Shown here: in pieces, positions 1,242 to 40,914 of the stretch
Numbering within the stretch: position 1 is the first letter of the stretch
How the letters are laid out: every line of letters begins with the position of its first letter
Source of the DNA: Chryseolinea sp. H1M3-3
GTDB lineage: Bacteria > Bacteroidota > Bacteroidia > Cytophagales > Cyclobacteriaceae
DNA length: 64,000 nt
Direction: 5' to 3'
NCBI RefSeq assembly: GCF_029360725.1
Contig: NZ_JARKMY010000009.1
Location: 248,001-312,000 of the forward strand
Made by a program: the position numbers and the translations under genes
The notes under the pieces: model-generated
The model's input: only the letters and a program-made list of their open reading frames with translations
Told to the model about the DNA's origin: nothing
Databases searched by the model: none

Positions 1242-1738
1242 ATGGCGCTACTATTTAAAATTTCATTGTTCGTTACAACGTTCATGGTGGCATTGATTGC
1301 CGGCCTTTCTATTCATATACTATTTCTGTAAACCTTGGATTGGCCAAGCTCTCGGATGCGGAATACTTACGATCCATGCAAAGTATCAACCGGGCCATCC
1401 TAAATCCATGGTTCTTTATGAGCTTCATGGGTTCGCTGATAATGTTGCCTTTAAGCACCTGGATGTCATCGAGAGCAGGTGGATATGACTTATCATTCTA
1501 TCTGCTTCTGGCGGCGACTATGCTCTACGTTGCGGGGGTATTCGGTGTAACGATTTTTGGCAATGTTCCATTAAATGAAGCCCTGGATAAGTGGGATATG
1601 AGCACTGCAACGTTGCAGGAATTAAATAACAAAAGGAAGGAATTTGAAATTCCCTGGAATAAATACAACATGATCAGAACCCTCACGAATGCCGTGGCGC
1701 TTGCCGTACTAATATGGAGTATCGTAAGAAAATATTGA
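1242..1738 (+). pseudogene. DUF1772-like small membrane protein, interrupted by a -1 frameshift
   Basis: The C-terminal 130 residues (from about 1340) read as a DUF1772-type membrane protein: AKLSDAEYLRSMQSINRAI, two or three hydrophobic segments and a short cytosolic tail. The expected N-terminal membrane helix is present just upstream but in another frame: the ATG at 1242 opens MALLFKISLFVTTFMVALIAGL and then stops at TAA 1329-1331. If one T is added to the CCTTTC run at 1304-1309 the two frames join and the text continues FYSYTISVNLGLAKLSDAEYL, exactly the continuity expected. I see the two frames directly; the missing T is inference. It may be a genuine pseudogene, a homopolymer sequencing error, or a slippage site. 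Function of the family is not established (some members resemble anthrone-oxygenase-like proteins). Confidence 0.75.
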
Positions 1739-1901: not shown

Positions 1902-1971
1902 AAATAACTGTAATGTTATCTGTGTTTACCCCACTAATCCGAAAGATGTTACCGAATTTAAATCTGCACCC

Positions 1972-3639
1972 ATGAAAAAATCCTTCCTTGTCGGTCTTGC
2001 TCTCATTTTCATCACTTGCGTTGCGTGTGGCCAGGCGACACCTGAAAAGCAAATTGACCAGCTTGTTTCCGCAATGCTGCAACCAGCAAATGGCGGAGTC
2101 GCGATCGCGGTGGCAAAGCAAGATAAAATCCTTTTCAGCAAAGGGTATGGATCGGCAAATCCCGAGTATGATATTGCCTGTTCACCAAAAACTATTTTTC
2201 ACGTAGCCTCGGTTTCAAAACAATTTACAGCTTTTGCTATTGCATTGCTGGCAGACCAGGGTAAGATTTCGCTTGATGACGACATTCGTAAATATCTTCC
2301 GGAACTTCATGATTTTGGTCACAAGATCATTATTAGACATCTCGTTCATCATACCAGCGGACTTCGTGATCAATGGAACCTCCTCGCGCTGGCCGGTTGG
2401 CGTTTAGATGACGTTATTACCCGAAATCAGGTTTTAAGACTAATAAGTCATCAGGAGGAGTTGAACTTCAAACCAGGTGACGAGTTTTCATACTGTAACA
2501 CTGGTTATACACTGATGGGTGAAATTGTGAGCAGGGTGTCGGGAAAAACCTTTTCGGAGTGGTGCAGTGAAAATATTTTCAAACCGTTGCAAATGAACAA
2601 TACATTGTTCTATGATGATCATGAAAAAATTGTAAAAGGAAGAGCGTATTCGTTTCAGGAGTCACCCGGTGGTTTAAAAAAGAGTGTACTTAGTTACGCC
2701 AACGCTGGAGCTACCAGCCTTTTTACGACGGCTGAAGATTTGACCAAATGGTCGAATAATTTTTATACAATGAAAGTCGGCAATGCTAAGGTGATGAAAC
2801 AAATGGAAGGCCGTGGCATATTGAATAAAGGTGACACTATCTCTTACGCTTTCGGTCAGGATATTTCAAAATACCGTGGCGTTAAAACCGTTTCACATTC
2901 AGGTGGTGACGCAGGCTACAGAAGCTATTTGCTGCGGTTTCCTGAACAAAAGTATTCGATCGTCGTCTTGAGTAACCTTGCCTCTTTTAACCCAGCTAAG
3001 CTGGCCAACAACATCGCAGATATTTATTTGAAGGGATATTTGAAAGAAGAACCAATAAAGAAGGAAGAAAAGACACAAGCTTCTGTGTCGAAGGTTAGCG
3101 AAGCATTACTAAAACTATATGAAGGACAATATCAGCTCAACAATGAAATGATTGTCTCTTTTAAATTGGATGGCGGTAAATTTATCGCTCAGGCTACTGG
3201 TCAGCTGCCAGTCACATTGCTGGCCAGTTCTGACACTGAATTTCTAATTGAAGGAATGGATTTAAAAATTGTCTTTAACAAAGAATCTGATAACACTGTA
3301 AACCAGTTCACATTATATCAAGGAGGGCATACCATAGTTGCACCGCGAATGAAGCCTTTTGACGTAAGATCCGTAGATCTCAAGATGTTTACCGGGACAT
3401 TTTACAGTCCTGAACTCCAGACTAGTTACACATTGGCACTTAGCGGTGACACTTTAATAGCAAACCATATCCGCCACGAACCCGCAAAGATGACAGCGGT
3501 AGCGAACGATTCATTTGCCACAGACGCATGGTTCATGAGTAAAATCGAATTCACCAGAAATGAGAAGTCGGAAATTACCGGGTTTAAAGTTTCAAGCGGC
3601 CGTGTAAAAAATGTAAAATTTTTTAAAAAGGAATTGTAA
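1972..3639 (+). CDS. Serine beta-lactamase-like hydrolase (class C / penicillin-binding family), exported
   Basis: The product carries the three serine-acylase motifs of the class C beta-lactamase fold: SVSK at residues 80-83 (SxxK nucleophile), YCN at 174-176 (YxN) and HSG at 309-311 (position of the KTG box). An N-terminal hydrophobic signal (KSFLVGLALIFITCVACGQ) shows export; the cysteine in CVACGQ could be a lipoprotein site. After the catalytic domain (about 25-350) there is a beta-rich C-terminal part of about 180 residues, common in esterases and D-aminopeptidases of this family in Bacteroidota. Such proteins are usually esterases or peptidases rather than true resistance enzymes; the substrate is unknown. 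It stands alone, convergent with the gene at 3709. Confidence 0.88.
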   Translation: MKKSFLVGLALIFITCVACGQATPEKQIDQLVSAMLQPANGGVAIAVAKQDKILFSKGYGSANPEYDIACSPKTIFHVASVSKQFTAFAIALLADQGKISLDDDIRKYLPELHDFGHKIIIRHLVHHTSGLRDQWNLLALAGWRLDDVITRNQVLRLISHQEELNFKPGDEFSYCNTGYTLMGEIVSRVSGKTFSEWCSENIFKPLQMNNTLFYDDHEKIVKGRAYSFQESPGGLKKSVLSYANAGATSLFTTAEDLTKWSNNFYTMKVGNAKVMKQMEGRGILNKGDTISYAFGQDISKYRGVKTVSHSGGDAGYRSYLLRFPEQKYSIVVLSNLASFNPAKLANNIADIYLKGYLKEEPIKKEEKTQASVSKVSEALLKLYEGQYQLNNEMIVSFKLDGGKFIAQATGQLPVTLLASSDTEFLIEGMDLKIVFNKESDNTVNQFTLYQGGHTIVAPRMKPFDVRSVDLKMFTGTFYSPELQTSYTLALSGDTLIANHIRHEPAKMTAVANDSFATDAWFMSKIEFTRNEKSEITGFKVSSGRVKNVKFFKKEL

Positions 3640-22055: not shown

Positions 22056-22147
22056 ATAATTGATGAGCATAAAGTAAACGTTAACATAATCTCCGGAAAA
22101 ACAACTTGTTATCGAAACATATCGTACTAATGGATTTACCGTGTTGC

Positions 22148-24895
22148 ATGACTAAAACCTGTTTCGTATTTCTTTGTTACCTGTTCCTATCCAGTGCTTT
22201 TGCGCAGGCCCAACTCCAAGATACCCTGCTGCAGCAACTTGAACATCATCCAGAAATTGACACCGTCCATATTAATTTGCTGAACGCATTGAGTCACCAG
22301 AACCAATGGAAGGATTTCAATAAATCCCTTGTCTATGCCACGGAGGCACTAAAGTATGCGGAACAGTTATCCTTTGAGTCGGGTATCGCGCAAGCTTATA
22401 ACCGGCAGGCACATTGTTATTGGGCGTTGGGTGACAGCGATCGGGCGATAGAAAAAGCGTTGCATGCTGTTGCTGTTGCCGAACGTTCTGGACTCACCAA
22501 CGTGCTCGGCGAAGCTTATAGAACCTTAGCAATGTGTTATCGCGATCAGCAGGAACTGGCGAAAGCTGTCGCTTATATACGACACGCCGAGGCGCTGGCT
22601 ACGCAAAAAAAAAATTGGGACTTGCTGGCCAGGGTCTTCAATCTTGCTGGTGTCATAGCGCATTCGCGCGCACAATATGACAGTGCATTAATATATTATA
22701 ATAAATCTTTGCAGGTAACTTCAGAGCATGCAATCACAACCTTTCACGTATCGCAGGCACTATCGAATATGGGTGAAGTCTATTTAAGAAATGATCCGGA
22801 AAAAGCGCTCGGCTATTTTAACCGCGCCTTGGCTAGTGCGAAGGAAACACAGAATCGCTCAGCGGAAGCCGGAATACTTGCAGACGTCGGCAGAGCGCTC
22901 CTTAGGTTAAAGAAATATGCTGAAGCAGAACGTTACTTAAATCAATCGTTAGTATTGGCACGCACCCTTGGCCTTAAACGTGTAATCCGGCATGTTTATC
23001 TTGCGCTTACAGACCTAAAAATAACTGGAGGTAAAACAACAGACGCTTTAAATTACATGCAGGCATATTATGATGTACGCGATAGCCTGCTCAATGGATC
23101 TAAGACGAGACAAATTGTAGAACTGGAAACACGTTTCGAAAAGGAAAAGCAGGAGCAAAAAATTCAGTTGCTTGAACAGGAAAAAAGAATCCAAAGCCTG
23201 TGGCAAAATGTTCTGATCGTAGGATCAATGTTGCTCGTAATTGCCCTCGTAATAATTTACCGGCTGCAGCAATTACGATCCTCGAAATCCCGGCAGCTTC
23301 TGGAAGCCCAGCAGGCATTAAATAATAAATTAAAGGAAACTGATGCACTCAAATCGAAATTCTTTGCGAATCTTTCTCATGAATTTCGTACCCCCCTTAC
23401 ATTGATTCTTAGTCCCGTAGAAGAACAACTCCGAAATTTCAGCTTGCCCGAATCTGAACGGAAAAAACTGACCGTGATACAACGGAATGCCCACCGCCTT
23501 TTGGATTTGGTGAATCAGTTGCTCGATCTTTCCAAATTGGAAGCAGGCAAAATGGAGCTTTCCATCCATTATCGTAACCTTTCAAAATATCTTCATGTTT
23601 TGATCTCATCATTTGATTCGCTTGCCGAGCATAAACAGATCGATTTTATCAAAAATATTTCCACGTACGAAACACCCGTTGGCTTTGATGCAGATAAGAT
23701 TGAGAAAATTGTTAGCAATATCCTTTTCAATGCGTTCAAGTTTACGCCGGCTGGAGGCCAGGTGATTTTTTCAATGCATGTCTTCGCCGAGGAGAATGAA
23801 GTTGTGATGACGGTAGCTGACACCGGTAAAGGAATACCAACGGAAGAACACGCTAACGTATTCTCACCATTTTATCAATTGAAGCCGGAAGAAGAAAATC
23901 ATCCGGGGACTGGATTGGGCCTATCATTGGTTCACGAATTGGTTAAGTTATACGAGGGCACAATTGAATTGACAAGTGAGGTGAATAAAGGTACTTGTAT
24001 TGTCGTGACGCTGCCTCTCTTTCCGATGGAGAATGCGGTTGAATTCCCGATAGAAGAAAAAGACTCACAGCATGATGTTCGACAGGCGTTTGAGCCAACC
24101 GAAGCGTCGGTCCCCTCGACGATTGCTGAAATTGAGCTCTACAACACCATCCTGGTCGTGGAGGATAATACCGAACTGCGGAATTTCATTATATCGGGAT
24201 TTGAAAACCAGTTTGCCATTTTATCAGCGGTAGATGGTGAAGAAGGCGTTGCCTTGGCACTGGAGCATATACCTGATGTAATCATTTCTGATGTTATGAT
24301 GCCAAGAATGAACGGTCTGGATCTTATAAGCCGAATCCGGAAAGATGAACGTACGAGTCATATACCTGTTGTTCTGCTTACTGCTAAGGTGGACGATCAA
24401 TCAAAACTGGAAGGATTAAAAACCGGTGCTGATGAATATCTGGCCAAGCCTTTCCTGATGGAGGAACTTCAAGTAAGGGTAAATAATGTCATCGAACAAC
24501 GCAAACGGCTGGCCATAAAGTTAAAGCAAGATTTTGCAGATGAACAGGTCTCAACTGCTGACATAAAGGAGCCGTCACTAGATGAAAAATTTATTGCGAA
24601 AGTTAGGAGTATAGTGGAAGCAAATATCGGCAATTCATTTTTTAGCGTTGAAATGCTCGCTGCCGAAATGAATCTCAGCAGGGCACAACTGTTTCGTAAA
24701 CTTAAGGCTTTGATCAACACGTCCCCAAGCGAATATATCCATGACCTGCGCCTGCAACGGGCTGCGAAATTGATCCGCGCAAAAGCTGACAACGTTGCGC
24801 AGATCGGGTATGCGGTTGGGTTTAATGAACAATCATATTTTGCAAAACGCTTCCGGAAAAAGTATGGCGTCTCCCCCACTGAATATGCACGATGA
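22148..24895 (+). CDS. Hybrid two-component regulator: periplasmic TPR sensor, kinase, receiver and AraC output in one protein
   Basis: I start at ATG 22148 because it gives a clean signal peptide (TKTCFVFLCYLFLSSAFAQA); ATG 22130 and TTG 22106 are alternatives. Order, by residue from this start: TPR repeats about 30-320, a transmembrane helix about 352-371 (VLIVGSMLLVIALVIIY), a coiled segment, HisKA with the phosphorylated His in NLSHEFRTPL at residue 411, HATPase with DTGKGI and GTGLGLSL, a receiver domain with phospho-Asp in ISDVMMPRMN at 715, and a C-terminal AraC helix-turn-helix. This is the Bacteroidota hybrid two-component type, with TPRs where polysaccharide sensors often carry beta-propellers. 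Target genes unknown; no obvious transport cluster is adjacent. Confidence 0.92.
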   Translation: MTKTCFVFLCYLFLSSAFAQAQLQDTLLQQLEHHPEIDTVHINLLNALSHQNQWKDFNKSLVYATEALKYAEQLSFESGIAQAYNRQAHCYWALGDSDRAIEKALHAVAVAERSGLTNVLGEAYRTLAMCYRDQQELAKAVAYIRHAEALATQKKNWDLLARVFNLAGVIAHSRAQYDSALIYYNKSLQVTSEHAITTFHVSQALSNMGEVYLRNDPEKALGYFNRALASAKETQNRSAEAGILADVGRALLRLKKYAEAERYLNQSLVLARTLGLKRVIRHVYLALTDLKITGGKTTDALNYMQAYYDVRDSLLNGSKTRQIVELETRFEKEKQEQKIQLLEQEKRIQSLWQNVLIVGSMLLVIALVIIYRLQQLRSSKSRQLLEAQQALNNKLKETDALKSKFFANLSHEFRTPLTLILSPVEEQLRNFSLPESERKKLTVIQRNAHRLLDLVNQLLDLSKLEAGKMELSIHYRNLSKYLHVLISSFDSLAEHKQIDFIKNISTYETPVGFDADKIEKIVSNILFNAFKFTPAGGQVIFSMHVFAEENEVVMTVADTGKGIPTEEHANVFSPFYQLKPEEENHPGTGLGLSLVHELVKLYEGTIELTSEVNKGTCIVVTLPLFPMENAVEFPIEEKDSQHDVRQAFEPTEASVPSTIAEIELYNTILVVEDNTELRNFIISGFENQFAILSAVDGEEGVALALEHIPDVIISDVMMPRMNGLDLISRIRKDERTSHIPVVLLTAKVDDQSKLEGLKTGADEYLAKPFLMEELQVRVNNVIEQRKRLAIKLKQDFADEQVSTADIKEPSLDEKFIAKVRSIVEANIGNSFFSVEMLAAEMNLSRAQLFRKLKALINTSPSEYIHDLRLQRAAKLIRAKADNVAQIGYAVGFNEQSYFAKRFRKKYGVSPTEYAR

Positions 24896-25193
24896 AGTTT
24901 TTGCAACGACAATACCGGGATTGGTAACAATTGTTCAAGCATCATTCGTAATTGAGGTGTCACCTTTGTCATGACAAAACAACACGAGTATGGATAGCCA
25001 CAAAACAACCCCTGCACTAAGCGCCACCTTGAGGAATCTTATGACCAGACTATTCCTTCGCCCTTTACAAGACTCGGTATTATTTTTATTTCACCTTAGT
25101 CGCATTCGAAACGATGATTTTTATTATTGGTGACTTATTCTTAATCCGTGACTTTACGTTGGTTCCGGTTTCTTTGCGTTTATTGAAACTTCA
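24896..25193. other. Intergenic sequence before the repeat array
   Basis: About 300 bases after the hybrid regulator with no gene, terminator or promoter that I can support. Confidence 0.5.
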
Positions 25194-25251
25194 CCGTTGT
25201 TGATCTGCTCACAGTCTTACCCGCAAGGCCAATGGATCAGTGAAGTATACG
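25194..25251 (+). repeat. Diverged head copy of the palindromic repeat family
   Basis: CCGTTGTTGATCT near 25194, then AAGGCC and GAAGTATACG (25242-25251). The first part resembles the reverse complement of the B end of the array (26051-26107), and GAAGTATACG is the exact inverted match of CGTATACTTC at 26118-26127. It may be the left boundary of the whole element. Confidence 0.4.
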
Positions 25252-25283
25252 TTGTCGGGGAAGCCAGCAAGTAAGTAAAACGT

Positions 25284-26022
25284 CGCCGTTGTTGGTGTTG
25301 TGCGGAGCCTGGTGCGTGAGCTCCACCAACAACCGCACACACTAGGATGACAGACTTTAACGTAGTACGGTTCAAAAATTTGACGCAACGCCTGTTTGTT
25401 CTTCTATTAATTTTCAATCACATTCGTCTTCGCCGTTGTTGGTGTAGTGCGGAGCCTGGTGCATGAGCTCCACCAACAACCGCACACACTAGGATGACAG
25501 ACTTTAATATAGTACGGTTCAAAAATTTGACGCAACGCCTGTTTGTTCTTCCATTTAATTTTCAATCACATTCGTCTTCGCCGTTGTTGGTGTAGTGCGG
25601 AGCCAGTGCGTGAGCTCCACCAACAAACGCACACGCTCGGATGACAGACTTTAACATAGTACGGTTCAAAAATTTTGACGCAACACCTATTTGTTCTTCC
25701 ATTTAATTTTCAATCACATTCGTCTTCGCCGTTGTTGGTGTTGTGCGGAGCCTAGTGCGTGAGCTCCACCAACAACCGCACACACTAGGATGACAGACTT
25801 TAACATAGTACGGTTCAAAAATTTTGACGCAATGCCTATTTGTTCTTCCATTTAATTTTCAATCACATTCGTCTTCGCCGTTGTTGGTGTTGTGCGGAGC
25901 CTGGTGCGTGAGCTCCACCAACAACCGCACACACTAGGATGACAGACTTTAACGTAGTACGGTTCAAAAATTTGACGCAACGCCTATTTGTTCTTCCATT
26001 TAATTTTCAATCACATTCGTCT
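25284..26022 (+). repeat. Tandem array of five ~148-bp palindromic repeat units (unit A plus spacer)
   Basis: Units begin at 25284, 25431, 25579, 25727 and 25876 (periods 147, 148, 148 and 149). Each starts with a hairpin: GTTGTTGGTG pairs with CACCAACAAC, with an inner stem GGAGC/GCTCC; then follow about 90 bases of conserved spacer containing GGATGACAGACTTTAA, TAGTACGGTTCAAAAA, GACGCAA and TTTAATTTTCAATCACATTC. Units differ by only a few substitutions and one-base gaps. There is no variable spacer, so it is not a CRISPR array, and no reading frame is conserved across units. Confidence 0.92.
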
Positions 26023-26050
26023 GAATACTGTCGAAACCTGTTATCAGCTT

Positions 26051-26107
26051 GCGTGCGGTTGTTGGTCAGACGCGCACGGCCTTACGCACAAGACCAACAA
26101 CGGCGTG
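26051..26107 (-). repeat. Terminal B hairpin of the repeat element
   Basis: GCGTGCGGTTGTTGGTC pairs with GACCAACAACGGCGTG. Read on the other strand its ends match those of unit A (CGCCGTTGTTGGT ... ACCAACAACCGCAC), so B is an inverted, diverged copy of the A hairpin and closes the array. A homologous B follows a single A unit at 37845-37902. Confidence 0.8.
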
Positions 26108-26175
26108 GGATACAGTGCGTATACTTCGCCGGTGAAACATTCATTAAGAAATTGAAATGAGCGTGGGTATCAATT

Positions 26176-27759
26176 TCAGACTCCCTTCAACTTTGCAGTG
26201 GCTTGTTTGATCCCATTGACCGCATTCAGGCGCCCAGCATGGCGTTCTAAATCAGCCTCGTAGGCTTCAAGCGCATTTCGATAATCTTTCAGCTCCATGT
26301 AAAGATCTCCCAAAAGTTCTCTGGCCGGAACGACTTCACCTGGCGTTACGGGATGCTTCTCAGTAGCATCTTCCATGTCAGCTGCTTCTGTCATCAGGCG
26401 AATGGCTTCATCACGATCACCCCGGGAAAATGCTAACCACGCTTCCGATGCTTTGATTTGGATTTGTACCTGGTTTGCTTCGTATGTTTTTTTATTTTCA
26501 ACCAGCATGGCATGGTTTGCTTTTAAACTATCCAGAGCAGCAATTGCATCTTCATTCCGATGCAGATGGACGGCACCTAAAAGTTTTCCAAAAAAAATCA
26601 GTGACCTCTCCCATGGATAATTCTTCCATGGAAAATCATGCGGTTTTAATTCCAATGCTAATACCGCCGGCCAGTCTTTGCGTTCCAGCGCATAACGCGT
26701 AGGTGCTGCGGCCATGGTATACGCAACCTTATTGTTAAAAGGAAAAACGACCTGCATCGACTGCAGGTAATCCAATTGTTCTTTTGCCTTATCATACTTT
26801 CCTTCCTGCAGATAAGCATAAACAAGGTAGTCCAGTCCATGGATTTCTTCATCCCAATGACCTTGCATGCCGGCATTCTCCGCGTAACATTTTGCTGCGG
26901 TCATAGAGTTGATGTTGGACTGCGCAGACTCCTCCCACAGACCCAGCCTTGTAAAAATATGAGAGGGCATATGCAACGCATGGGCTGATGACGAGGCAAT
27001 TGAGGCATACTTTCGTGCTGCCGGCAAGCCCATTTCGGCAAGTTCAGGGTAATCGTAAATATGAATGAGATAGTGTGCAATCCCTGGATGATCAGGTTGA
27101 CTGGCGAAAATCGAATTCAATATTTCTCCAGCTTTGCGTTGTTTTACAAATGTTTTGTCCGTCGGATCCGATGCTGCGCGCAATGCTAATGCATAAAATA
27201 TTGCGGCTTCCGTATCTGCCGGATACTTTTGATAAATCTTCTCGGCAGCTTTTTCAAACTTTTGAAGGCGACTGGCATGGCTAACGTTACTCCAGTCGTC
27301 ATATAAAGTTGCAGCCGCTTCGAGATATTCGGACTCGCGGTTATCACCACCTCCTAATGAACGCGCAACCGAGATTGACTTCGACCCCTTCTCTAATTCA
27401 TCTTTGGTTGGTGGAGCCCATAAAGGGTGAAAGTTGCTCATGGCTACACCCCAATATGCCATCAGGCACTCGGGATCCTCATCGATGACTTTCGCAAAAA
27501 CCTTTTCGGCTTCGGCGTATTCAAACGAATGAAGCAACGCTGTGGCTAGATTAAAGTTTGCCTGCACTTTTTGCGCGCATGACTGGCCAAAGTCCACTTT
27601 ACCGAACTTGGCTTGCTCAGCGCCGCACAGCGCTATATCGCCACTTAACAGATTGAGCGACTTCAGCTCACTCCTCAACTGGGTTTGATCCCTTTTCTCC
27701 TGACAGGAACTGATCAGGAGAATGGAAGCAACATATAATATTTGGAGGTGAAATTTCAT
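26176..27759 (-). CDS. Exported TPR-repeat lipoprotein
   Basis: The signal ILYVASILLISSCQEK ends in a lipobox (LISSC), so the mature protein should be lipid-anchored at Cys about 19. The rest is tetratricopeptide-like helical repeats: FEYAEAEKVFAKVIDEDPECLMAY near residue 80, others around 180-300, and a C-terminal pair including EVVPARELLGDLYMELKDYRNALEAYEADLERH, with NALEAYEADL typical of TPR. The middle contains HYLIHIYDYPELAEMG and HALHMPSHIFTRLGLWEES, recognisable from a widespread TPR protein group, but no enzyme motif is visible. Probably a scaffold or binding protein. Confidence 0.85.
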   Translation of the reverse strand: MKFHLQILYVASILLISSCQEKRDQTQLRSELKSLNLLSGDIALCGAEQAKFGKVDFGQSCAQKVQANFNLATALLHSFEYAEAEKVFAKVIDEDPECLMAYWGVAMSNFHPLWAPPTKDELEKGSKSISVARSLGGGDNRESEYLEAAATLYDDWSNVSHASRLQKFEKAAEKIYQKYPADTEAAIFYALALRAASDPTDKTFVKQRKAGEILNSIFASQPDHPGIAHYLIHIYDYPELAEMGLPAARKYASIASSSAHALHMPSHIFTRLGLWEESAQSNINSMTAAKCYAENAGMQGHWDEEIHGLDYLVYAYLQEGKYDKAKEQLDYLQSMQVVFPFNNKVAYTMAAAPTRYALERKDWPAVLALELKPHDFPWKNYPWERSLIFFGKLLGAVHLHRNEDAIAALDSLKANHAMLVENKKTYEANQVQIQIKASEAWLAFSRGDRDEAIRLMTEAADMEDATEKHPVTPGEVVPARELLGDLYMELKDYRNALEAYEADLERHAGRLNAVNGIKQATAKLKGV

Positions 27760-37670: not shown

Positions 37671-37902
37671 CGCCGTTCTTGGTGTTGCGGGAATCCAGTG
37701 CGTGAGCTCCACCAACAACCGCACGCATTTGGATGACAGGCTTGGGAATGTACCGCTTAAAGTTCGACGCTACGCCAGTTTATTGTTTAATTCAATTTTT
37801 GTCATGTCGGCAACCTAAGTACCATCGAAATCTGTTATCCACTTGCGTGCGGTCGTTGGTCAGCCTCGCGCGATCCTTACTCACAAGACCAACAACGGCG
37901 TG
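37671..37902 (+). repeat. Single-unit copy of the A-spacer-B palindromic element
   Basis: An A hairpin starts at 37671 (CGCCGTTCTTGGTG ... CACCAACAACCGCAC), then a spacer with GGATGACAGGCTTG and GACGCTACGCC homologous to the array at 25284, then the B hairpin (37845-37902, GCGTGCGGTCGTTGGTC ... GACCAACAACGGCGTG). One A here against five at 25284-26022 shows that A plus spacer is the expandable part. It lies between the VOC gene and the DUF4350-like gene, in DNA with no open frame. Confidence 0.85.
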
Positions 37903-39742: not shown

Positions 39743-39755
39743 CGAATACATCTCT

Positions 39756-39820
39756 CCGTTGATTCTGAGATTGCGTGAACCAGCCCCGCTGCAACCGCAC
39801 GCATGCCGATGACAAGTTTT
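39756..39820. repeat. Degenerate relic of repeat unit A
   Basis: CCGTTG ... GCGTGA ... GCAACCGCACGCATG then GATGACA in the order of unit A and its spacer, but the arms no longer pair well. It matches the single-unit copy at 37671 (CCGCACGCAT ... GGATGACAG) best. Confidence 0.5.
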
Positions 39821-40728: not shown

Positions 40729-40794
40729 ACCCCTTTTTCAACAGTGATCTGGAGCGTGGCCAATTATTTGAGTTAGTGAATGTCAATCTTCTTT

Positions 40795-40859
40795 GCCGTT
40801 GTTAGTATTGCGCGGAGCCGAAGCGCGTGAGCGCTACCAAACCAAAGACCACCAACGGC
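40795..40859. repeat. Diverged A-type palindrome between the two copies of a gene end
   Basis: GCCGTTGTTAGT ... GCGCGGAGCCGAAGCGCGTGAGCGC ... ACCACCAACGGC, an A-type unit with substitutions in the arms; the terminal GCCGTTG and CAACGGC still pair. It ends at the base before the duplicated gene end at 40861. Confidence 0.6.
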
Positions 40860-40860
40860 T

Positions 40861-40914
40861 GACTATCAGTGTCGCGAGTTTATGCATTAAGTATTGGCTT
40901 GGTTAAAGAACTAG
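40861..40914 (+). pseudogene. 54-bp duplicated 3' end of the DUF4350-like gene
   Basis: These 54 bases align without gaps to 40675-40728, the last 18 codons (DYQCREFMHEVFAWLMN plus stop) of the preceding gene, with seven substitutions. One turns GAA into TAA, so the fragment would read DYQCREFMH-stop. It is a decayed remnant of a duplicated or recombined copy, not a gene. Confidence 0.85.

Follow-up and report, generated by a model that had tools for sequence, protein, structure and literature searches.

The window analyzed here, a stretch of 64,000 nucleotides from the genome of Chryseolinea sp. H1M3-3, contains a gap of 1,280 bp between two convergent genes (22106-24895 on the plus strand and 26176-27759 on the minus strand), and a unit of about 148 bp is repeated five times in this gap. 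An earlier note on this DNA had offered a structured RNA array, a protein-binding array, or a mobile non-autonomous element as possible roles. The question is which kind of element this array represents. Very probably, it is a BIME-like cluster of REP hairpins, the REPIN-equivalent unit of which (“A-spacer-B”) is a non-autonomous passenger of a subclass 2.6 RAYT encoded near another cluster, C7.

Layout of the array in the window

Tandem Repeats Finder scored positions 25283-26022 as a tandem repeat with a period of 149, 5.0 copies, 95% matches, and a score of 1336. The five direct units span positions 25284-26022, start at positions 25284, 25431, 25579, 25727, and 25876, are 147 to 149 bp long, and have pairwise identities of 92.6 to 96.6%, which confirms the five-unit tandem array in a 1.3-kb non-coding gap as initially described. 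The array ends with one complete inverted module at 26038-26105, which had been taken for an inverted half. A spacer of about 90 bp had been reported for all units; calculated from the module coordinates, this holds for the last spacer with 92 nt, but the others are 77 to 79 nt long. In front of a single B module, the A module has been amplified to five copies together with most of the spacer, and this 148-bp A-plus-spacer unit was seen in the window cluster only. The cluster reaches slightly past 25284-26107, since a decayed B copy is located upstream. The features in the window were as follows.

25196..25261, minus strand: decayed B module with outer linker, a direct copy of about 26058-26135 (alignment score of 49 versus 30 for the best of 200 shuffles), not matched by the covariance model
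25284..25353, plus strand: A-type REP module 1, 84.1 bits, CGCC foot, stem GTTGTTGGTG/CACCAACAAC, tail GGATGACAG
25354..25430, plus strand: spacer of unit 1, the interval between modules
25431..25500, plus strand: A-type REP module 2, 78.4 bits (covariance model)
25579..25647, plus strand: A-type REP module 3, 77.4 bits (covariance model)
25727..25796, plus strand: A-type REP module 4, 85.7 bits (covariance model)
25876..25945, plus strand: A-type REP module 5, 84.1 bits (covariance model)
25946..26037, plus strand: full-length spacer of 92 nt, part of the complete A-spacer-B unit
26038..26105, minus strand: array-closing B-type REP module, 79.8 bits, stem GTTGTTGGTC/GACCAACAAC, tail CTGATAACAG
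25876-26105: complete A-spacer-B unit of module 5, last spacer, and B, with whole-unit homology to other loci
37671..37900, plus strand: solo intergenic A-spacer-B unit of about 230 bp, with A at 37671-37739 (plus) and B at 37832-37900 (minus)
39754..39815, plus strand: possible degenerate single module, no partner seen, 17.3 bits, E of 4.4e-3 for the window
40794..40869, plus strand: degenerate single module, no partner seen, 20.1 bits, E of 6.5e-4 for the window

A recent expansion, as had been proposed, is plausible for the 148-bp units, although these already differ from each other at 3 to 7% of their positions.

The REP module and its two ends

The REP module is about 69 nt long (67 to 71 nt among the extracted copies) and has a loop region of 23 to 27 nt. 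The stem common to the copies is formed by GTTGTTGGTN with N'ACCAACAAC plus two outer pairs, and the 3' tail ends mostly with GGATRACAG or TGATAACAG. Two alignments were used. Alignment A1 contained 28 of the 45 pattern-extracted modules of the own genome, with near-copies omitted, and was the basis of the covariance model; the extraction pattern did not capture 3 of the 48 strong modules. Alignment A3 had 47 rows, of which 3 were own-genome modules and 44 came from eight other genomes. The 44 were hand-picked from 74 matches, with partial ends shifted by up to about 25 bases, and A3 omits the matches of L090, L091, L138, L140, L143, L146, and L150, the overlapping duplicates, and the single matches of L085, L136, L137, L151, and L152.

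All 28 own-genome modules of A1 have a CGCC foot. In A3, the foot is C in 46 of 47 rows, followed by C in 39 of 47 and by G in 35 of the 42 filled rows, and 12 of 17 exact-pattern hairpins in the second set of RAYT loci (see below) have a GCC foot. A C.C mismatch separates the stem from the outer pairs in 26 of the 28 own modules of A1 and in 27 of the 47 rows of A3. Concerning the nested hairpin with an inner GGAGC/GCTCC pairing that had been assigned to every unit, the stem is present in the modules, but the inner pairing does not occur in every module, being absent from the B type.

The family has two distinct ends. The loop-proximal stem pair is G-C or A-T in the A type and C-G in the B type, with 12 CG, 8 GC, 7 AT, and 1 GG among the 28 modules of A1. 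The covariation score of this inner pair in the own genome was 0.142 compared to a shuffled mean of 0.058, and none of 500 shuffles was that high. The outer stem pair covaries as well, with 18 CG, 16 GC, 9 UA, 1 AU, 1 GU, and 2 unpaired among the 47 rows of A3, these numbers being counts of sequences and not of events. Its score of 0.174 (shuffled mean of 0.042, 0 of 500 that high) fell to 0.025 to 0.063 when the partner was slid by 1 to 3 columns. The relatives in A3 were chosen with a model that contained the stem, which favors pairing in general and not a particular pair type. Variation on both sides was found in only 2 of the 10 stem pairs of A3, and these two pairs and the 9 further pair types were no better than the slid controls (3 and 10, respectively). 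Folding of single modules gave z values of 0.0 to −1.7 in seven folds, no better than shuffled sequence, so that the case for the hairpin is based on covariation and not on fold energies.

An internal pseudoknot, TTGYG or a loop GTGCG with a 3' CGCAC, was dropped after inspection by eye because loop and tail vary independently. Hairpins with a loop shrunk to a few bases occur in genome G028 at L137 5574-5623 and 2358-2407 and at L083 1386-1434. Their end pair is GGTC/GACC, as in the B type, their tail in the aligned rows is GATAACAG, and they sit opposite full-size A-like hairpins.

Dispersal in the host genome

When the last array unit was used as query, 45 matching places were found in the own genome, and the solo unit gave 48. 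Eight clusters with a total of 48 modules at E≤1.3e-12 were identified by the covariance model, plus one module at 6.7e-6 and one at 0.033. The clusters contained 15 (C7), 10 (C12), 8 (C19:146k), 6 (window array), 3 (C10), 3 (C2:570k), 2 (solo unit), and 1 (C2:228k) modules. All of them are intergenic, and frames overlapping them were either spurious ones inside the repeats or an extended RAYT frame that starts at an upstream GTG. Three of the eight (window array, C12, and C2:570k) lie between convergent genes. Inward-facing A-spacer-B pairs are present in five clusters, the window array, the solo unit, C19:146k, C7, and C12, with an A-B spacer of 92 to 94 nt in the four units measured. Because the other three, C10 and C2:570k with three modules each and C2:228k with its single module, have one orientation only, the pair is not universal.

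The loci are separate and have sharp borders. Over its whole length, the window unit was 76.6 to 78.6% identical to C19:146k, 75.2 to 76.0% to C7, and 71.8 to 75.2% to C12, and this similarity stops at most 14 bases from the CGCC feet in the matches listed, which were the four longest per locus pair. The 25 bases beyond the feet differ between the clusters; within C2:570k, two of its three modules have them in common. This recurrence of A-spacer-B at separate, sharp-ended intergenic loci agrees with the mobile non-autonomous element considered in the earlier note.

Among the matches listed, C7 and C12 were about 89% identical over 1.2 to 1.37 kb, and C19:146k was 66 to 69% identical to both. 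C7 (L014 6486-8510) and C12 (L015 6224-7554) have units and outer linkers in common over a length of up to 1.37 kb, which gives the impression that an entire array of several units was copied from one locus to the other.

No clean empty site was found, and the flank pairs were not syntenic in congeners. No module-like hairpin was located within 1.5 kb of the orthologues of the C19:146k neighbor in all four other congeners with a match, nor of those of the solo-unit neighbor in two of two; the loose pattern used for this check matched only unrelated stretches. The orthologue of the C19:146k neighbor in G004 has a module on the same contig, at a distance of about 3 kb. The hairpin-free surroundings are compatible with a lineage-specific insertion, but a clean empty site was not among them. 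A unit that is a simple deletion derivative of a RAYT gene was rejected, since the spacers have no clear origin in such a gene: when four spacers were compared with five RAYT stretches, 19 of the 20 comparisons were within the shuffled range, and the exception, a C7 spacer versus L108 (40 versus a shuffled maximum of 37 in 100), was taken as chance.

The RAYT transposase of the host

About 125 bp from the C7 array, which is upstream of it, is a RAYT gene with an intact frame of 174 residues (L014 5836-6360, minus strand). Modules are on this upstream side only, and none was seen downstream of the gene. The protein contains the motifs NHFH, WQ, and YIHQNP, and thus an HUH motif and one tyrosine. 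The NCBIfam model REP_Tyr_transpos matched it with an E of 3.1e-22 and 79.0 bits at a cut-off of 80, which was passed by four of the eight RAYT homologues scanned. Pfam Y1_Tnp gave 17.9 bits, under its cut-off of 23. The structure model of the homologue L167 (mean pLDDT of 95.2, 22 sequences) had the RAYT-REP complex 4er8 as best PDB match, with an E of 6e-10, followed by transposases of the IS200/IS605 type, ISDra2 and IS608 among them. Unlike this fold search, a sequence search of the PDB found no RAYT match. No tnpB look-alike was seen by eye among the listed frames of at least 90 aa around the own RAYT.

At the three further Y1_Tnp/RAYT-like loci in the host genome, no module was matched at E≤1. 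Two other Y1_Tnp genes, at L009 (about 253.7 kb on contig C6) and L010 (about 938.8 kb on contig C12), adjoin differing repeated and partly palindromic sets, CCCGAGCTGAAGCTCGGGG-like and GGCCTGAAGTCCTGCGC-like, respectively, which suggests two more REP-like families in the host genome.

Hairpins and RAYT genes in other genomes

In a set of 146 genomes, made up of the own one and those around it, modules were present at E≤1e-3 in 14, the own one included. The search of the genome and its relatives thus produced further copies, and covariation exceeded all shuffles in both stem pairs, so that the outcome that would have argued against the array as a family, no other copies and no covariation, was not observed. 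A RAYT homologue at E≤1e-8 was found in 12 of the 14 module-bearing genomes, compared to 88 of all 146. The other two, G004 with 23 modules and G069 with 2, had no RAYT match at E≤1e-8. G004 belongs to the same genus and is a 380-contig assembly, with modules, for instance, at L148-L152. Here, the repeats may outlive the transposase, or the gene may be missing from the assembly. Among the best 30 RAYT loci, one of them the own locus, 14 of the 29 others had a module match at E≤0.05. At L109, hairpins at 1327-1374 (plus) and 1952-1992 (minus) frame the RAYT match at 1430-1939.

A second set comprised 57 RAYT loci from named genomes, the majority of them Bacteroidota and a few of them Ignavibacteria/Chlorobi or from other groups, and may overlap the genomes of the first set. 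It contained 84 module matches at E≤0.1, and 55 of these were within 300 bp of the gene, a region that makes up about 10% of the bases. Upstream matches were on the strand of the gene in 26 of 30 cases and downstream matches on the opposite strand in 19 of 25, which means that the hairpins face inward. An inward hairpin was present on at least one side in 29 of the 57 loci and on both sides in 14. In the remaining 28, none was detected with the model, which was built from the own genome only. At L182, with a RAYT 61% identical, full-length modules occur on both sides, with 52.0 and 52.5 bits.

In a tree of 29 RAYT rows, the label “module” required four changes, while the mean after shuffling was 9.8 to 9.9 and none of 500 shuffles was as low. 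This clustering is inflated since a model from the own genome detects close relatives more easily, and the label stands for a module match at E≤0.05 anywhere in the locus of about 3.4 kb, not strictly flanking the gene. The own RAYT belongs to a five-row clade (99/99), all loci of which have matches, weak ones in L108 (E of 0.019) and L110 (E of 0.042). L114, L125, the module-bearing locus L127, and L009 are not in the tree because no frame was extracted from them.

The end of the RAYT frame at L182 3001-3651 diverges from the family despite the two full-length flanking modules; this RAYT is possibly a recently broken copy. L184, L185, and L196, which are Ignavibacteria/Chlorobi records and thus labeled as outside of the Bacteroidota, contain like RAYT genes with inward hairpins. 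Beside a RAYT gene of a Pontibacter record (L174 3534-3578), a hairpin has AGTAG, the canonical GTAG foot, instead of GCC; being 1 of 17 hairpins, this is perhaps chance.

Proposed mechanism and alternative explanations

The pair of hairpins, in effect a small parasite of the genome, is probably the target of a transposase that cuts single strands and has its gene at another place in this genome. Binding, nicking, movement, and the route of amplification are deduced here from the anatomy of the repeats and from the chemistry of TnpA_REP as given in the available text of PMC8266576. When a strand becomes exposed during replication or transcription, the module would fold with its GCC foot 5' of the GTTGTTGGTN stem. 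The RAYT with its HUH motif and one tyrosine would bind the folded module and nick beside the hairpin, and A-B units might be cut out or copied in single-stranded form and then inserted again into intergenic DNA. The fivefold repeat of A plus spacer would have arisen later, when the left part of one unit was amplified locally, either by slippage between hairpins or by an aberrant strand transfer of the RAYT. As RAYTs bind their REPs, the array is presumably also protein-binding, the second role that had been considered.

A more specific form of this mechanism is conceivable but rather doubtful. Recognition in this RAYT clade would follow a code other than the GTAG code that has been solved, namely, a GCC foot combined with a GTTGTTGGT stem; the ends would be told apart by the compensated pair, and the half-unit array would result from aberrant RAYT strand transfer, which would multiply the A end only. 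In the own genome, the features concerned are the C.C mismatch at the stem base and the G-C or A-T pair in A as opposed to C-G in B. RAYT biochemistry rests, according to the available text of PMC8266576, on gamma-proteobacterial enzymes with GTAG-bearing REPs.

The hairpins could alternatively be transcribed structured RNAs, such as terminators, mRNA stabilizers, or a small-RNA array, with a regulatory function and spread by recombination. Covariation suits an RNA as well as single-stranded DNA, and REPs between convergent genes can serve as terminators or stabilizers, which fits three of the eight clusters including the window array. Against this stand the absence of any Rfam match in the whole window at gathering thresholds, the inverted pairs in five of the eight clusters, which put a hairpin on both strands and argue against a single transcribed strand, the separate loci with unrelated neighbor genes and sharp borders, and the homologous RAYT genes framed by such hairpins. 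A structured RNA array as the primary nature of the locus is improbable; a secondary regulatory role of the hairpins may exist.

Hairpin DNA is readily multiplied by slippage, and the array might be nothing but a local tandem duplication of an immobile palindrome by replication slippage, the link to RAYT being coincidental. The restriction of the 148-bp unit to the window cluster and the three clusters with one module type would agree with this. Slippage accounts for the fivefold copy but not for dispersal: the module is common to eight clusters and the two-ended, sharp-bordered unit to five, and proximity and orientation of hairpins and RAYT genes in the 57 loci are far from chance, which makes such a coincidence very unlikely. 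An assembly artefact, to which short tandem repeats are prone, is hardly credible in view of the private differences between the units, the position of the array inside a 554-kb contig, the module arrays on other own contigs, and the related hairpin clusters in other genomes.

The array, read as a BIME-like cluster of a RAYT-dependent family, is consequently struck off the candidates for new RNAs and CRISPR-like or integron-like loci. With its defined consensus for the hairpin, its two-ended unit, and its matching transposases, which come mostly from Bacteroidota, the family makes GTAG-less recognition and the origin of REP arrays directly testable.

Comparison with known systems

The attC sites of integrons have RYYYAAC ... 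GTTRRRY boxes, and no copy of either box was found on the two strands of 25151-26200. A CRISPR array was rejected as well because the spacers repeat along with the units and the identity of 92.6 to 96.6% extends over whole units. On both points, the first assessment of the locus is corroborated. A canonical GTAG REP does not apply, since the GT[AG]G foot is absent and is replaced by CGCC in the 28 own modules of A1 and mostly by GCC in other genomes. CGTC-tagged REPs have CGTC at one end, a stem of 8 to 9 bp, and no associated transposase (PMC3733652), and they were dismissed because the foot here is CGCC, the stem has 10 plus 2 pairs, and a RAYT is associated.

IS200/IS605 elements share the HUH/Y1 transposase fold, as judged by the homologue model, and two distinct hairpin ends with the family described here. 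In contrast to them, the own RAYT is under the Pfam Y1_Tnp cut-off, the unit contains no gene, and there is no tnpB look-alike.

The likeness to the REPINs and BIMEs of gamma-proteobacteria, as described in the available text of PMC2817692, is closer. It comprises inverted hairpin pairs (here in five of the eight clusters), an intergenic position (here in all of them), tandem and alternating clusters (alternating arrays are present), and inward hairpins flanking the RAYT gene. The same text gives more than 100 copies as usual for REPs, compared to 48 here. Different from the gamma-proteobacterial elements are the module of about 69 nt with its loop region of 23 to 27 nt and conserved 3' tail, the A-B spacer of 92 to 94 nt, the GCC instead of a GTAG foot, and a single compensated stem pair that marks the two ends.

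Among the papers listed in the literature searches, none was found with the consensus, the two-ended unit, or the half-unit array, the supplement of PMC6006769 being outside of this comparison, and none came nearer by title than PMC6006769 and PMC3733652. This kind of repeat is known in Bacteroidota but little studied. According to the available text of PMC6006769, TnpAY1 subclass 2.6 corresponds to the group 5 RAYTs of Bertels and occurs mostly in Bacteroidetes. Its genes carry the motifs NH[LIV]H, WQ, and YIH[QN]NP, and the structures on their flanks are atypical and weaker, lack GT[AG]G, and have copies elsewhere in the genome. A 21-residue insertion between helix C and strand 4 is a further mark of the subclass. 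The hairpins analyzed here likewise sit beside the gene, lack GT[AG]G, and have genome copies, 48 in eight clusters, a likeness that refers to the description of the atypical REPs in PMC6006769 and not to published hairpin sequences. The own RAYT agrees with the WQ and YIHQNP motifs and has NHFH as its HUH motif, with F in the place of L, I, or V. The family fits the description of subclass 2.6 in that text, with this one deviation in the HUH motif.
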